Shown piece by piece: positions 7,389 through 35,619 of a DNA stretch of 40,309 nt. The DNA comes from Oceanotoga teriensis (GTDB lineage Bacteria > Thermotogota > Thermotogae > Petrotogales > Petrotogaceae): NCBI RefSeq assembly GCF_003148465.1, contig NZ_QGGI01000001.1, positions 54,861 to 95,169 on the forward strand, given 5' to 3'. Each line of letters opens with the position of its first letter. The stretch's first letter is position 1. Below the pieces are notes generated by a model that saw nothing but the letters and a program-made list of their open reading frames with translations, was not told the origin of the DNA and did no database searches. Both the position numbers and the translations under genes were made by a program.

Positions 7389-7898
7389 AAAAAAAAGTTT
7401 CAAAGAAATATATTAAAAAAACTCATAATATCTCTATAAATACTCCACTGTTAGAATGTAACTTTTCTTTTAATTCAAAATTTAGACATTATTTTTCAAA
7501 AATCACAGGTGTTATATCATTTAAATTTACAGCTGATATGGCAACTGCATGGAGAAAAGTAAAAAATGAAAATGATAAGAACTTTACAATCCAAAATATG
7601 TTAGATATTTATTATGGAAAATCAAATTATGCAAAGTATGATAATTCAATGTGCCAGTGGAATCAATTTGTAAAAGATTTTTGTGAAGATGAAAAAAGCT
7701 TTTTATACTCTAATAAATTGAAAGTTGCCTCTATACTTTGGAAAGAAATAAGAGATTCCAAAAAAGAAAAAGTTTATCATAAAGAATTACTTGATAAATA
7801 TTCTGAGAAAATAAAAGACTATCAAAAATAAATTTAAATGACTAACTAAAAAACTATATATGATAATTACTTTTATTATTTTAGTAAAGAGTATAAAT
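7389..7898 (+). repeat. Long direct repeat, right copy
   Basis: Matches 1-510 at a constant offset with three mismatches in 502 bases. The left boundary is at 7388/7389, where the reading frame meets TAA. At its right end this copy continues smoothly into the decayed membrane-protein gene, while the left copy breaks into the traG remnant. So the original right flank of the locus is here. Confidence 0.95.
7391..7831 (+). pseudogene. 5'-truncated copy of the gene at 1-443
   Basis: Carries the same 146 C-terminal codons as the left copy, but a TAA directly precedes them (7388-7390), so the N-terminal part of the gene is missing. Only an internal ATG at 7538 (97 residues) could start translation, with no convincing ribosome site. 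Product unrecognised. Differences from the left copy are few and only one changes a residue in the last 97 codons (N to D), as expected for a recent duplicate rather than an old paralogue. Confidence 0.7.
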
Positions 7899-11762: not shown

Positions 11763-14024
11763 CTATTCTTTATTAATATATTTTTTTAGATATTTTCCAG
11801 TTAAAGATTCTGAACATTTAATTAAATCTTTCGGTACTCCTGAAAACATAATTTTACCTCCATTTTCTCCTGCATATGGACCTATATCAATAATCCAATC
11901 TGCTTGACAAATAATATCTAAATTATGCTCTATAACAATAAGAGTTGAATCTTTATCTACAAGATGATTCATTACATCAATTAATTTTTTCATATCAGCC
12001 ATATGTAAACCTGTTGATGGTTCGTCCAACACATAAATATTACCTTTATTTTCAAGTTCAGAAGCAATTTTAATTCTTTGTAATTCTCCTCCCGAAAGAG
12101 TACTTAATGGTTGTCCTAAAGTAATATAAGTAATACCAACATCTGAAAGTCGTTTTAAAACATTTATGATTTCTTTTTCTTGGAAAAATTCTAATGCTTC
12201 TTTAATTGTCATTTTAAGAATATCAGCGATATTTTTTCCTCTTAAATTATAATTAAGTACTTCTTCAGTATAACGATTTCCATGACATTTTTCACACACT
12301 GTAACCATCGTATCCATGAATGCCAAATCAGTATAAGTAACACCTAATCCTTTACAATTAGGACAAGCTCCTTTGGAATTGAAACTAAATAAAGAGGCAT
12401 TTACATTATTATTTTTTGCAAATAATTTTCTGATAATATCAAAAATTCCTGTAAAAGTTGCAATATTTGAACGTTTTGATGCTTGAATTCTTTTCTGATC
12501 AATAAAAACAGTTTCTGGATATAATTGCGACAATATCCCATTAACAAGCGTACTTTTTCCTGACCCAGCAACTCCAGTTACAACAGTCATTACTCCTTTT
12601 GGTATATCAATTGAAATATTTTTTAAATTATGCATTGTTGCATTTTTAATGGAAAGCCAACCTTTTGTACTTCTAGGAAAAGATTTTATTTTTGGTAAAT
12701 TGGCTAAACATTTTCCTGTAAGGGTATCTGATGTTTTTAGTCCTTCAAAGTTCCCTTGATATACAATTTCTCCTCCATCAATTCCGGACTTCGGTCCCAT
12801 ATCAATAATATAATCTGCAATTTTTATCATATCTGGATCATGTTCTACAATTAAAACAGTATTTCCTTTATCCCGTAATAATTTCATAATTTCATTAATT
12901 TTTTTTATATCATGAGGATGAAGACCTATACTTGGTTCATCAAAAATATATGTAAGATCTGTCAAACTACTCCCAAGTTGACTAATCATCTTAATTCTTT
13001 GAGATTCACCCCCTGAAAGAGTTGAAGTTTCTCTATTTAAACTCAAATAATCTAAGCCTATAGATATCATATGTTGAATTCTATTTAGAAGTTCCGAAAT
13101 AATTGTAATAGATATAGTATTATGTATTGATTTAATAAAATTTAAAAGTTCATTTATTTGCATATTTGAACAATCTGATATGTTTTTACCTTTAATTTTA
13201 CAAGATAAGACTTTATCATTCAAACGTGTTCCATTACAATGCGGACAATCTTGTGTCATAACAAATTGTTCAATTTTTTTCTTATATCTAATCTTTTCTC
13301 CATCTTCTTTTTTTAAAAAACTTCGCTCAATACGTGGTATTAGTCCTTCATATAAAGAAGTTTTATGCCATTTAGGATTTGGATTTTTTACTTTAATTTT
13401 TTCAGAATAAAGTAAAAGTTCTAATTCTTTTGCAGAATAATCTTTTATTTTTTTATTATTATCAAAAAATCCCGAATGAATATAACGAGTTAATCTCCAA
13501 CCACCAGGTTCAAAAGTGGGAAAACGGATAGCCCCTTCATTTAAGGATTTATTTTTATCTAAAAGTTTTTCAATATCAATGACTTGAATTTTTCCTAAAC
13601 CTTCACAATATTCACACATTCCTAAGGGGTTGTTAAAAGAAAAAACATCTGAATATCCAATAAAGGGTTTTCCAATTCGAGAAAATAATAAGCGTAATAA
13701 AGAATATATATCTGTAATCGTACCAACTGTTGATCGAGCATTATTTCCTAATTTTTTTTGATTGACAATAAAACTTACTGATAAATTTTCAATTTTATCA
13801 ATATTTGGAGTTCCATAATGTGGCATGCGATTACGAATAAAACTTGTGTAAGTTTCATTTAATTGTCTTTGCGACTCTGCAGCTATTGTATCAAATACTA
13901 AAGATGATTTTCCAGATCCTGAAACACCTGTAAAAACTGTAATCTCTTTTTTTGGTATCATAATATTTATATTTTTTAAATTTTTTTCTCTTGCACCTGA
14001 TACTTTAATATAACTTTTCATCAT
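11763..14024 (-). CDS. UvrA-like ABC ATPase, short paralogue
   Basis: 753 residues against about 940 for canonical UvrA. Two ABC modules: Walker A GVSGSGKSS (33-41) with signature LSGGESQRI and Walker B YIFDEPSIGLHP; second Walker A GVAGSGKST near 484 with LSGGELQRI and YVLDEPSTGLH. Zinc-binding Cys pairs are kept (CEYCEGLG, CPHCNGTR, CPNCKGLG, CEKCHGNR). The missing length falls in the first module, where canonical UvrA has the UvrB-binding and insertion domains, so this is not the repair subunit but the UvrA2/DrrC-like type, linked to resistance to DNA-binding drugs. A MarR regulator follows it 12 bp downstream, which supports an inducible resistance role. Confidence 0.85.
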   Translation of the reverse strand: MMKSYIKVSGAREKNLKNINIMIPKKEITVFTGVSGSGKSSLVFDTIAAESQRQLNETYTSFIRNRMPHYGTPNIDKIENLSVSFIVNQKKLGNNARSTVGTITDIYSLLRLLFSRIGKPFIGYSDVFSFNNPLGMCEYCEGLGKIQVIDIEKLLDKNKSLNEGAIRFPTFEPGGWRLTRYIHSGFFDNNKKIKDYSAKELELLLYSEKIKVKNPNPKWHKTSLYEGLIPRIERSFLKKEDGEKIRYKKKIEQFVMTQDCPHCNGTRLNDKVLSCKIKGKNISDCSNMQINELLNFIKSIHNTISITIISELLNRIQHMISIGLDYLSLNRETSTLSGGESQRIKMISQLGSSLTDLTYIFDEPSIGLHPHDIKKINEIMKLLRDKGNTVLIVEHDPDMIKIADYIIDMGPKSGIDGGEIVYQGNFEGLKTSDTLTGKCLANLPKIKSFPRSTKGWLSIKNATMHNLKNISIDIPKGVMTVVTGVAGSGKSTLVNGILSQLYPETVFIDQKRIQASKRSNIATFTGIFDIIRKLFAKNNNVNASLFSFNSKGACPNCKGLGVTYTDLAFMDTMVTVCEKCHGNRYTEEVLNYNLRGKNIADILKMTIKEALEFFQEKEIINVLKRLSDVGITYITLGQPLSTLSGGELQRIKIASELENKGNIYVLDEPSTGLHMADMKKLIDVMNHLVDKDSTLIVIEHNLDIICQADWIIDIGPYAGENGGKIMFSGVPKDLIKCSESLTGKYLKKYINKE

Positions 14025-14185: not shown

Positions 14186-14713
14186 ATGGATTATAGAAAA
14201 TTACAAATTGATGAAATTAATAGACAATTATTTGACAAATTTAAACGTTATCAAAAAGTCACGAAATGCTGGAGAAAAATAAATGATGAATGGATTATTA
14301 AGGATATTTCATTTATAGATCAGTGGAGTGAAGACAATTATAATGAACTAATAAAATGCCTAAAAAAAACATTAGATACTGGGGGAATCGTATACGGAGC
14401 TTTTTTAGAGAACTCTTTAAAAGGTTTTGTTTCTGTAGAAAATGGATTTATTGGTAAAAACAAAGAATACTCTGATCTTTCATCAATTCATGTATCTGAA
14501 GATATGAGGGGTCATGGTATAGGTAAAAAACTCTTTCAAATTGCTGTAGAATGGGCAAAATCTCAAGGAGCAAAAAAAATGTATATTTCTGCACATTCTG
14601 CGGTAGAATCGCAAGCATTTTATAAATCTTTAGGATGCCAAGAAGCTTTAGAATATAGTAAAGAACATGTTGAAAAAGAACCTTATGATTGCCAATTAGA
14701 ATATCTTTTATAA
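14186..14713 (+). CDS. GNAT family N-acetyltransferase
   Basis: 175 residues. Motif A LSSIHVSEDMRGHGIGKKLF with the acetyl-CoA loop RGHGIG at 108-113; motif B KKMYISAHSAVESQAFYKSL; the end CQLEYLL is typical for this Firmicutes-type branch. No substrate can be assigned. GTGAGGTAAAG lies before the ATG. The next gene begins 40 bp further on in the same direction, so the two may share a transcript. Confidence 0.85.
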   Translation: MDYRKLQIDEINRQLFDKFKRYQKVTKCWRKINDEWIIKDISFIDQWSEDNYNELIKCLKKTLDTGGIVYGAFLENSLKGFVSVENGFIGKNKEYSDLSSIHVSEDMRGHGIGKKLFQIAVEWAKSQGAKKMYISAHSAVESQAFYKSLGCQEALEYSKEHVEKEPYDCQLEYLL

Positions 14714-14753
14714 TGTATACTCTATAAATATAAAAAGTCATGGGGGTAAACAT

Positions 14754-15227
14754 ATGAAAATAAATAAAAAATTAAAAATTTTATCTAAAATTGGAAAAGA
14801 ATTAAATAATGCCAATATTACATGGGCAGTAGGTGCTTCTTTATTACTATATTTAAAAGGATTTTTGGATGATTTTCAAGACATCGATATTATAATTGCA
14901 GAAAAAGATATAAGTAAAACTAAAAAAATATTATTAAAACTTGGAAAACTTGAACCAGAAAACCCGAATATTAAATATAAGACTAAAAAATTTCTTGAAT
15001 TCAAAGTAGATTGTTTAGATATTGATATAATTGCCGGATTTACAATAGTCAATAATAATCAAAATTTCTATTTTCCATTAAAACAAGAGGATATTAAAGA
15101 TTATATTGAAATTAATGGTATAAATATACCTCTTCAATCCGTAAATGAGTGGAGAAATTATTATAGTTTAATGGGTAGAACTGAAAAAGTAAAAATTATA
15201 GATGATAATATAAAAAATTATCATTAA
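14754..15227 (+). CDS. Minimal nucleotidyltransferase-fold protein
   Basis: 157 residues. TWAVGASLLLYLKG is the helix-loop with the G-(A/S)-S motif of polymerase-beta-like nucleotidyltransferases, FQDIDIIIAEKD supplies the catalytic D-x-D pair and VDCLDIDIIAGF the third acidic residue. Similar small proteins sit among aminoglycoside or lincosamide nucleotidyltransferases and the antitoxin-type MNT group, but no kinase or HEPN partner is next to it. RBS GGGGG before ATG. Its 3' end overlaps the convergent MATE gene by 4 bp, with no clear terminator between them. Confidence 0.65.
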   Translation: MKINKKLKILSKIGKELNNANITWAVGASLLLYLKGFLDDFQDIDIIIAEKDISKTKKILLKLGKLEPENPNIKYKTKKFLEFKVDCLDIDIIAGFTIVNNNQNFYFPLKQEDIKDYIEINGINIPLQSVNEWRNYYSLMGRTEKVKIIDDNIKNYH

Positions 15228-16543
15228 TATTTTTTTATATTTGATTTTTTATGTTTTATAATAAAAATATAAGATATAATAAATGTTATTGACTCTGCAG
15301 CAGGCACTGTAGCCCAAACTCCTTTTATTCCATAAAAATATGATAGTATTAATAAAAAAGGTATTATAAATAAAAAACCTCTTGAGAAAGATATAATAAA
15401 AGATGGTTTAGACATATTAACAGATGAAAAAAATGATGCGATCACAAAATTTATTCCCATAAATAAGAATCCTATAAAATATATTTTTAAACCCGTATTG
15501 GCTATTTCAAACATCATAAAGTTGGAATCTTTATTAAATAGATTTACAATCTCTTTTGAATAAATAAAAACAAATCCATATATAATAATTCCCAAAATTA
15601 AAGCTATCACTAATGCTATTATTAAAAGAGTTTTTACATTATTTTTTAAATCCATTCCATAATTTTCACTTATTACAGGTTGAATACCTTGAGATAATCC
15701 TGTAAATATAGCCATTACAACTAATGCAACATTCGCAATTATTCCATAAGCTGCAACCCCAATATTTCCCATTAAATTCATTATTATTAAATTAAATAGA
15801 ATAATTATTATACCAGAAGAGAATTCATTTAAAAAGTAAGTTATACCAAGATGAACAGTTTTTCTGAAAATTGAGAAATCTAAATTATATAACTTTAATA
15901 TTTTAAAATTTTTTAATATATATTTAAATATAATAAGTATGCTAAATAAAGGAGAAAATACAGTTGCTATAGCTGCTCCTCTTATTCCAAGATCTAAAAT
16001 AAATATGAAATAATAATCCAAAAATATATTCAAAATGCTACCAGATAGCATGGCGAACATCGCTAACTTTGGTTTATTATCATTTCTAATAAAACATATA
16101 AAAACATTGTTAAAAATAAAAAAACTTGAAAAAGATAAAATAATTTTTATATATGTACTTGACATATCTTTTATAACTTCGTTCGCGCCTAATATCATCG
16201 AAAGATCTTCTGAAAAAAACACTCCCAATAATGTAAATACTATACTAGCTAACAAAGAAAAAATTAGAGAATTATTAAAAATTCTATTTGTTTTTTTTAT
16301 ATTTTCTTTATATATAGAATATTGTATAGCCCCTCCCATTCCAATTAAAAGTCCTATTCCATTTAAAAATGAAAAAATTGGTATAGATATATTTAATGCT
16401 GCTAAACCTTCATTTCCAATTCCATTTGCAACAAAAAAAGTATCAGCTAAAACATATAAAGATATACCAATCATACTTAAAATATTAAAAATAACTTGTT
16501 TTAAAAAATTATTAATATAGTTGTTTTTTAAAACTTCTTGCAT
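15224..16543 (-). CDS. MATE family efflux transporter
   Basis: 439 residues from ATG 16543 (MQEVLKNNYINNF), with AAAGGAG eight bases upstream; an ATG 18 bases earlier overlaps that ribosome site. About 12 hydrophobic segments, starting with VIFNILSMIGISLYVLADTF, and the MATE features of a conserved F-V-A-N-G...GLAALN first loop and a repeated second half (FLNEFSSGIIIILFNLIIMN). Such proteins export cationic drugs by Na+ or H+ antiport across the inner membrane. Directly upstream is a leader with an intrinsic terminator (16569-16614), so expression is probably set by attenuation. Confidence 0.9.
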   Translation of the reverse strand: MQEVLKNNYINNFLKQVIFNILSMIGISLYVLADTFFVANGIGNEGLAALNISIPIFSFLNGIGLLIGMGGAIQYSIYKENIKKTNRIFNNSLIFSLLASIVFTLLGVFFSEDLSMILGANEVIKDMSSTYIKIILSFSSFFIFNNVFICFIRNDNKPKLAMFAMLSGSILNIFLDYYFIFILDLGIRGAAIATVFSPLFSILIIFKYILKNFKILKLYNLDFSIFRKTVHLGITYFLNEFSSGIIIILFNLIIMNLMGNIGVAAYGIIANVALVVMAIFTGLSQGIQPVISENYGMDLKNNVKTLLIIALVIALILGIIIYGFVFIYSKEIVNLFNKDSNFMMFEIANTGLKIYFIGFLFMGINFVIASFFSSVNMSKPSFIISFSRGFLFIIPFLLILSYFYGIKGVWATVPAAESITFIISYIFIIKHKKSNIKKY

Positions 16544-16561
16544 ATAAACTTCTCCTTTCAA

Positions 16562-16651
16562 TAAAAAACGTTAGAAAATCATATCCTAAGGCCTAATGAT
16601 ATGAGTTTCTAACGCTTTTTATTGTATACTTATCCGGCGATAAATATACAA
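16562..16651 (-). promoter_or_regulatory. Two-hairpin leader with intrinsic terminator before the MATE gene
   Basis: Read on the minus strand, a 13-bp stem with a GCCG tetraloop (16651-16622; one G-U pair) is followed by a 17-bp stem with one mismatch (CGTTAGAAAxTCATATC arms, 16614-16569) and a run of seven T, ending 18 bases before the MATE start. It lies between divergent genes, so it terminates no upstream gene. Transcription attenuation of the exporter is the natural reading. The terminator hairpin also has a short T-run in the plus direction. Confidence 0.75.
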
Positions 16652-16678
16652 AGCTATAATATTTAATTGTTGAAACAA

Positions 16679-16687
16679 ATTATACCA
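16679..16687 (-). promoter_or_regulatory. Extended -10 promoter of the MATE leader
   Basis: Minus strand TGGTATAAT (TG-n-TATAAT) with no good -35; it would start a leader of roughly 130 nt that contains both hairpins. Confidence 0.5.
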
Positions 16688-16776: not shown

Positions 16777-17313
16777 ATGAACTTAAAAACTAAAATACTT
16801 GATTCAAAAGATATCAAAAGAACTTTGATGAGATTATCGCACGAAATTGTTGAAAAAAATAAAGGTGTAGAAGATATTATCCTAATTGGTATAAAAACAA
16901 GAGGAGTATTTATAGCTCAAAGATTAAAAGATAATTTGAAATTGATCGAATCTTTTGATGTACCAGTTGGAGAACTTGATGTAACTCCTTATAGAGATGA
17001 CAATAAAAAATCCGAAAACGATACAAGTAAAATAGAAGATAATTTAAATGGTAAAAAAGTTATACTTGTAGATGATGTATTATTCACAGGTAGAACTATA
17101 AGAGCTGCAATGGAAGGATTAATTAAAAGAGGAAGACCTGAATTTATTGAACTTCTTGTTTTAGTTGATAGAGGTCATAGAGAATTTCCAGTTAGAGCAA
17201 ATTATATAGGTAAAAATCTTCCAACATCAAAATCAAGAGAAGAAGTATTAGTAAAATTAGCAAATATAGACACTGACATGGAAGAAGGAGTGTATATTTT
17301 CGAAAAAGAATAA
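16777..17313 (+). CDS. pyrR: PyrR, pyrimidine operon regulator / uracil phosphoribosyltransferase
   Basis: 178 residues, the usual PyrR length. The PRPP loop is KKVILVDDVLFTGRTIRAAM; IGIKTRGVFIAQRL and VPVGELDVTPYRDD are the other PyrR-specific blocks, and LVDRGHREFPVRANYIGKNL near the end is the substrate hood and RNA-binding surface. PyrR binds pyr mRNA leaders in response to UMP and also makes UMP from uracil and PRPP. It stands alone: no pyr genes are next to it, so any targets are elsewhere. The following gene, glgP, has its own promoter. Confidence 0.93.
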   Translation: MNLKTKILDSKDIKRTLMRLSHEIVEKNKGVEDIILIGIKTRGVFIAQRLKDNLKLIESFDVPVGELDVTPYRDDNKKSENDTSKIEDNLNGKKVILVDDVLFTGRTIRAAMEGLIKRGRPEFIELLVLVDRGHREFPVRANYIGKNLPTSKSREEVLVKLANIDTDMEEGVYIFEKE

Positions 17314-34308: not shown

Positions 34309-35229
34309 ATGGATTTAATTAACAAAAAAGGGCTTGCACCAATGGCAGATTATAGTGATTATATATTCAGAAAAATCTGTGTAGATCATGGAGCTGAATT
34401 TACAATCACAGAAATGATATCCTCAGATGCTATAATAAAAAATATAAAACCAACTTTCAAACTTTTACCACATGAAGATGAAAAAAATATTGGAATCCAA
34501 TTATTTGGAAATTCTCCATCTGTAATGTCAGATGCTGCTAAAATAGTTGAAAATTACGGTGATTGGATAGATATAAATGCCGGCTGTCCAGTAAAAAAAG
34601 TTGTTAAAAGAGGTGCTGGTTCAGCATTATTAAAAGATTTAGATAATTTATCAAATATAATATTCTCTATAAAAAAGAAGGTTAGCATTCCAGTAGGAGT
34701 AAAAGTAAGAATCGGTTATGATAGTTTTATTTTAGATGAAATACAAAAAAAAGTAGAAGATGCTGGTGCGGATTATTTAATAATACACGGAAGAACAAGA
34801 GAAGAATTTTATAAAGGAATTGCAAGAAGAGATTTTTTCCCAAATATAAAAGAAAAATCTAAAATACTTATAGGCGGTTCTGGAGATATATTTGAAAAAG
34901 AAGATATAGATTATTATTTAAATGAAATTAAAACTGATTTTATAATAATCGCAAGAGGTGCAATAGGAAACCCTTGGATTTTTGAAAATAAAATTCCAAA
35001 TATCCATGAAAAATTTGAATTATGTTTAAAACATTTAGATTCTTTGATATTAGATTCAAAAAATGAAAAAAATGGTGTAGACAGATTTAAAAAATTTTTA
35101 GTTGGATATACTAAAGGTATAAAAGGTTCAAAAGAATTAAGAAGTAATCTATCAAAACTTTCTTCTTTTAAAGAAGTCAAATCACATTTAAATGATATTT
35201 TAACAATAAATGAATTACACAACTTGTAG
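34309..35229 (+). CDS. tRNA-dihydrouridine synthase
   Basis: 306 residues. FMN-binding TIM barrel: GLAPMADYSDYIFRKIC, IGIQLFGNSPSVMSDAAKIV, and the catalytic Cys in DINAGCPVKKVVKRGAGSAL; VKVRIGYDS, YLIIHGRTREEFYKGIARRD and IIARGAIGNPWIF are the later FMN-binding blocks. It reduces specific uridines in tRNA with NADPH. DusB-like by general sequence, but I leave the exact subgroup open. Third gene of clpX-tsaD-dus; AAGGAG lies inside the end of tsaD. Confidence 0.9.
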   Translation: MDLINKKGLAPMADYSDYIFRKICVDHGAEFTITEMISSDAIIKNIKPTFKLLPHEDEKNIGIQLFGNSPSVMSDAAKIVENYGDWIDINAGCPVKKVVKRGAGSALLKDLDNLSNIIFSIKKKVSIPVGVKVRIGYDSFILDEIQKKVEDAGADYLIIHGRTREEFYKGIARRDFFPNIKEKSKILIGGSGDIFEKEDIDYYLNEIKTDFIIIARGAIGNPWIFENKIPNIHEKFELCLKHLDSLILDSKNEKNGVDRFKKFLVGYTKGIKGSKELRSNLSKLSSFKEVKSHLNDILTINELHNL

Positions 35230-35232
35230 AAT

Positions 35233-35261
35233 AAAAAGCGAATTTAATAATTCGCTTTTTA
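35233..35261. terminator. Bidirectional terminator between dus and flaG
   Basis: Perfect 8-bp stem AGCGAATT / AATTCGCT with a TAAT loop, extended by A- and T-runs on both sides. Confidence 0.9.
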
Positions 35262-35262
35262 T

Positions 35263-35619
35263 TTATGCTTGCTCATCAAAAAGAATTCCTTCTAAATCAT
35301 TTAATGCTTTGGCAAGTTTTATAGAAGTTTCAGGTGGTATCTGTCTTATAACTTCTTTAGTATCCTTATCAACAATCTTTACAACAACCATATCAACATC
35401 ATCATTAACTTCAAATTTTGCTTCAGAATTAAAAATTTTCTGAATTTTATCGAGCTTTTTTTGAAGTATATTTGTGATATCTTTTAAAGATGAATTGTTT
35501 TCAGAATTTTTTTCTTGATTTTTGGTATATTTTCCAATTTCATCTTTTTGAATGGGTGTTTTGTTAATTTTATTATCATATTTCTGATAATTATTCATAG
35601 AAACATCCCTGATTTCCAT
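35263..35619 (-). CDS. flaG: FlaG family flagellar protein
   Basis: 118 residues. A disordered, Lys/Asn-rich N-terminal half (about 1-60) precedes the FlaG domain, which has FEVNDDVDMVVVKIVDKDTK, EVIRQIPPETSIKLAKALND and the end LEGILFDEQA. Linked to flagellar filament length; exact role not clear. AAGGAGGG before ATG. It follows the giant GGDEF gene by 41 bp on the same strand and has no other flagellar gene near it in this window. Confidence 0.88.
   Translation of the reverse strand: MEIRDVSMNNYQKYDNKINKTPIQKDEIGKYTKNQEKNSENNSSLKDITNILQKKLDKIQKIFNSEAKFEVNDDVDMVVVKIVDKDTKEVIRQIPPETSIKLAKALNDLEGILFDEQA

Follow-up and report, generated by a model that had tools for sequence, protein, structure and literature searches.

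We analysed a 40,309-nt stretch of Oceanotoga teriensis DNA, hereafter the window (GCF_003148465.1, contig NZ_QGGI01000001.1, positions 54,861-95,169), and found that the leader of its MATE exporter gene is, with a probability of roughly 0.87 as judged from sequence comparison, a guanidine-IV (mepA/GGAM-1 class) riboswitch controlling that exporter. It occupies the minus strand of the interval that separates the divergent pyrR gene (16777-17313, plus strand) from the MATE gene (15224-16543, minus strand). Its elements and the gene that follows are listed below.

16687-16679, minus strand: extended -10 promoter TGGTATAAT, from sequence
16651-16622, minus strand: P1 hairpin, 13 bp including one G-U pair, with a C-[GCCG]-G apical loop, from folding and covariation
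16636-16638, minus strand: loop-1 GCC, the 5' partner in the predicted kissing loop, pairing with GGC at 16593-16591
~16623-16560, minus strand: P2 hairpin, the intrinsic terminator stem, from folding and covariation in both segments
16597-16586, minus strand: P2 apical loop AUUAGGCCUUAG, 12 nt, with the kissing half GGC at 16593-16591 and a G at 16586
16568-16560, minus strand: U-tract TTTTTTATT, six T and then ATT, from sequence
16558-16552, minus strand: Shine-Dalgarno sequence AAAGGAG, from sequence
16543, minus strand: ATG start codon of the MATE gene, from sequence
15224-16543, minus strand: MATE family efflux transporter of 439 aa, predicted guanidine exporter (PF01554, 4e-37; TIGR00797 above cutoff)

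An earlier note on this DNA had described a 13-bp hairpin capped by a GCCG tetraloop, together with a terminator hairpin, between the extended -10 element and the ribosome site of the MATE gene, and both are borne out by sequence and folding. Its intrinsic terminator with seven T stands as a hairpin with a U-tract, but the tract is six T followed by ATT. As the note had also stated, no upstream gene requires termination, the minus strand carrying none and the upstream neighbour being the divergent pyrR. The leader folds with -39.6 kcal/mol versus -17.1 +/- 2.9 kcal/mol for shuffled sequences (z = -7.75; 0/200 shuffles as low). In a 440-kb survey of this genome, the terminators adjoining a Shine-Dalgarno sequence include known switches, namely a thiamine pyrophosphate (TPP) switch identified by Rfam and a LicT-type ribonucleic antiterminator (RAT) recognised by eye, which made an attenuator more likely from the outset. 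The note had also suggested that ribosomes might stall on a tiny peptide; this is not supported, since neither an ATG or GTG codon nor a Shine-Dalgarno sequence occurs between 16671 and the terminator, and the relatives conserve the RNA structure and loop nucleotides.

The relatives of the leader carry the assignment. In a search of plasmid records, the best non-self MATE homologues bearing such a leader come from Acetoanaerobium (45% identity to the window MATE), Monoglobus (44%), Enterococcus faecalis (38.5%) and Enterococcus raffinosus (37.8%); a Streptomyces match (39% identity) was left out of the leader comparison. Directly upstream of the MATE gene, all four have a two-hairpin leader, in which a hairpin with a C-GCYG-G loop is followed by a terminator hairpin with a loop of approximately RUUAGGCC-UUG. 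In Acetoanaerobium, TGCTATAAT stands 5' of P1 at a site comparable to that of the extended -10 TGGTATAAT in the window. DNA similarity to the Acetoanaerobium leader revealed a fifth copy, in Selenomonas, upstream of an operon of a NimA-like (pyridoxamine-oxidase-like) gene and uvrA. From these five relatives, with the window excluded, we built a covariance model. Its sole match in the 2.8-Mb O. teriensis genome (2,793,031 bp, 45 contigs) is the window leader, with 44.5 bits, an E-value of 2.8e-6 and all modelled pairs standard. The model gave no other match in 614 kb of control loci and detected none of 80 chance loop-pattern matches in 671 kb of viral contigs; pattern scans of viral contigs likewise yielded no real members.

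The six sequences together, loop-loop pairing included, align with 95% of cells paired, a figure somewhat favoured by the fitting of the alignment to the model, whereas register-slid controls fall to 41-49%. Both sides changed in 19 of 28 pairs, versus 8.4 in shuffled and 5-8 in register-slid alignments, and the covariation score is 0.690 versus 0.293 (0/500 shuffles as high). Specifically, two-sided changes affect 8/10 modelled pairs of P1, and the kissing pairs are kept in every sequence as GCC/GGC, GCC/GGU or the compensatory GCU/AGC of E. faecalis, amounting to one compensatory and two G-U changes. The covariation search suggested in the earlier note came out positive for both stems and the loop-loop pairing, with relatives from outside Thermotogota, and this covariation across phyla supports its view that the MATE exporter gene is preceded by a regulated attenuator.

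The note had called the leader an orphan without a known riboswitch; instead it matches a published class. Guanidine-IV riboswitches consist of two pseudoknot-joined hairpins, the second being a terminator, lie upstream of genes associated with guanidine, among them SugE, MATE and PnuC transporters, and act as ON switches, for which the proposed mechanism is that the kissing loop hinders full terminator zipping (PMC7736828, PMC11611296, PMC12186494). The conserved loop-2 nucleotides G66, U67 and G72 of Lactococcus lactis equal G71, U72 and G77 of Clostridium botulinum; G72/G77 is mutation-sensitive as well as conserved (PMC7736828, PMC11611296), and in C. botulinum the kissing loop is restored when A29G is combined with U72C (PMC11611296). 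By numbering and kissing pairs, C. botulinum C30-G71, A29-U72 and G77 would correspond to C16637-G16592, G16638-C16591 and G16586 of the window. The leader shares with the class the two hairpins with a terminator as the second, the MATE gene downstream, the kissing of loop-1 (G/A)CC with loop-2 GG(C/U) and, going by this probable correspondence, the conserved G five nucleotides past the kissing pairs. Unlike the published members, its host belongs to Thermotogota, outside the six phyla in Table 1 of PMC7736828, its stems are long and AT-rich, and its loop 2 lacks two nucleotides that most of the relatives gathered here have. In its architecture, its gene context and the conserved positions of its loops, the leader agrees with the published class; by analogy, the O. 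teriensis leader would bind guanidine and switch the gene on when this toxic compound accumulates, and the window MATE would export it.

Several points weigh against this assignment. Membership was judged from the five relatives, which were called guanidine-IV in this analysis and not in the papers, and from the text and numbering of the papers, not from the published alignment of 2,882 sequences. Loop 2, with 12 nt, is 2 nt short of four of the five relatives, and the deletion lies on the stem side of G16586. Gd4v, a closely similar class, likewise occurs upstream of MATE genes and makes poor use of guanidine. Moreover, class and ligand alike are predicted by comparing sequences.

The Rfam scan of the window leader returned only sub-threshold long-hairpin matches (MIR7502, STnc400), and the scan of the canonical relatives (L090-L093) returned no match either. 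The Rfam copy searched therefore seems not to contain this class, which explains the failure to name the leader; a missing Rfam match can be due to an incomplete library.

Guanidine binding, ON-switch behaviour and the kissing-loop mechanism are taken from the papers on other members. On this model, folding would begin with P1 and upper P2. Guanidine would then stabilise the kissing of loop 1 (GCC) with loop 2 (GGC), which would strain the short linker and block the zipping of P2 into the full terminator, so that the polymerase continues into the exporter gene. When guanidine is absent, P2 would zip fully and transcription would end at the U-tract. The P1-P2 linker is 17 nt long when upper P2 alone is paired, shrinks to 6 nt once the core has formed and disappears when the A/U arms zip, in agreement with the published competition between P2 zipping and the kissing loop. 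The leader would thus be an AT-rich thermophile example in which P2 zipping uses up the whole linker. We found no classical antiterminator in the leader: no upstream sequence can pair with the terminator arms better than expected by chance, which is consistent with the unusual mechanism of guanidine-IV.

The ligand could differ from guanidine in two ways. Because of the shortened second loop and the thermophilic host, the leader might be a guanidine-IV offshoot with an altered preference, for example for a substituted guanidine that the MATE would export, which we consider unlikely. Quite unlikely, too, is the main rival, that the leader belongs to Gd4v or has drifted toward it and senses a different ligand, perhaps a guanidine derivative, exported by the MATE. 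Gd4v has a nearly identical structure and also occurs upstream of MATE and GNAT genes (PMC9788692); a GNAT gene lies near the leader (14186-14713), and the window loop 2 is shorter by 2 nt than in most relatives. However, Gd4v is marked by an extra hairpin on top of the terminator (D2) and never has G at the binding-critical position D1 (PMC9788692). The 12-nt loop AUUAGGCCUUAG holds no inserted hairpin, at best a weak 3-bp closing stem similar to those possible in the relatives from Acetoanaerobium and Selenomonas. G16586 would be a G at D1 if D1 equals L. lactis G72, a placement made by elimination, the position not being stated in PMC9788692. In addition, Gd4v is reported mainly from guts, whereas O. 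teriensis is an oil-reservoir/marine thermophile. We therefore favour guanidine over a Gd4v ligand, given the missing D2 hairpin and the G kept at the probable D1, with the length of loop 2 as a caveat.

A different explanation makes the hairpin mainly a bidirectional terminator that keeps plus-strand transcripts of 14186-15227 from reaching pyrR and that lies in the MATE leader only incidentally. The convergent plus-strand genes 14186-14713 and 14754-15227 are followed only by a weak AT-rich hairpin; the latter overlaps the MATE gene by 4 bp (15224-15227) with no good terminator between them. Hairpin 2 (within 16559-16624) is nearly symmetrical, with a T-run on the plus strand too, and an ordinary terminator at 35229-35264 has the same AATAAAAAGCG...CGCTTTTTATT form. 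Yet the leader also stands before MATE genes of other genomes, where the neighbouring genes differ, and what is conserved includes P1 and loop nucleotides that no terminator needs. Where the symmetry breaks down, the MATE-sense strand has G-U pairs and the opposite strand A.C mismatches, so the minus-strand hairpin is the more stable one. We regard this explanation as very improbable, while a stop to plus-strand read-through before pyrR may be a side effect of the riboswitch hairpin.

As a guanidine-IV riboswitch, the leader would extend the class to Thermotogota, apparently by transfer together with the transporter. The literature examined holds no report of guanidine-IV in this phylum, the full published sequence lists not being part of the comparison. 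The window MATE is one of at least 12 MATE exporters in the O. teriensis genome, and its closest Thermotogota counterpart shares only ~31% identity. In the protein tree, it falls inside a clade of riboswitch-associated Firmicutes MATEs (support 100/99), which also includes a Limosilactobacillus protein, while the other Thermotogota MATEs fall elsewhere. Of the 103 Thermotogota genomes searched, only that of O. teriensis has the leader RNA; a further Thermotogota match (L097, E 0.036) was dismissed as chance, falling within a coding gene. No similar leader precedes the eleven other MATE genes of O. teriensis or 29 Thermotogota MATE genes, and a DNA-level search of 21 family genomes gave only AT-rich noise. 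Since the tree places the MATE with Firmicutes and the RNA is confined to one Thermotogota genome of those searched, O. teriensis apparently gained switch and gene together from Firmicutes, joint transfer being the simplest reading of these sequence comparisons. The leaders of MATEs with at most 35% identity (Cetobacterium, Ilyobacter, Lysinibacillus, Peptoclostridium, Lachnospira) fail the covariance model. That of Limosilactobacillus fermentum (35% identity; L098:870-940) also fails it and retains a UCGCCGGGU hairpin loop, so it is possibly a diverged or decayed member.

Neither a guanidine-I riboswitch nor an SMR/Gdx-type guanidine exporter was found in the O. teriensis genome, where the sole PF00893 match is a 303-aa DMT-type protein; for this reason, the window MATE may be the main guanidine export route of the organism. 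This gives a substrate hypothesis, guanidine, for a MATE generically annotated as a drug pump in a multidrug-resistant oil-reservoir thermophile.

The Selenomonas leader is carried by the Selenomonas ruminantium plasmid pSRC1 (L096:1486-2066). A NimA-like gene also follows the Monoglobus MATE, and the window has a UvrA-like gene (11763-14024, minus strand) not far from its MATE, a hint of a common detoxification set. Three MATE paralogs of O. teriensis (L036, L037, L038) have TTGACC-N19-TATAAT/TAAAAT/TAAAGT promoters of the MerR-activator type, one of them with a divergent MerR-like gene. These promoters were the reason for considering P1 as a DNA operator, a TetR/MerR-like palindrome, which was rejected because P1 shows RNA covariation.

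Elsewhere in the same genome, a perfect long hairpin with a T-run, a Shine-Dalgarno sequence and an 11-codon open reading frame (MNIHINIEKIN) precede a 526-aa ABC-F-like gene (L079:11260-11420, plus strand), and this leader looks like an antibiotic-induced, ribosome-mediated attenuator. Within the window, positions 1-300 and 7389-7688 are identical 300-bp copies in direct orientation, 7.4 kb apart, which probably mark the boundaries of a segment that is mobile or was duplicated.
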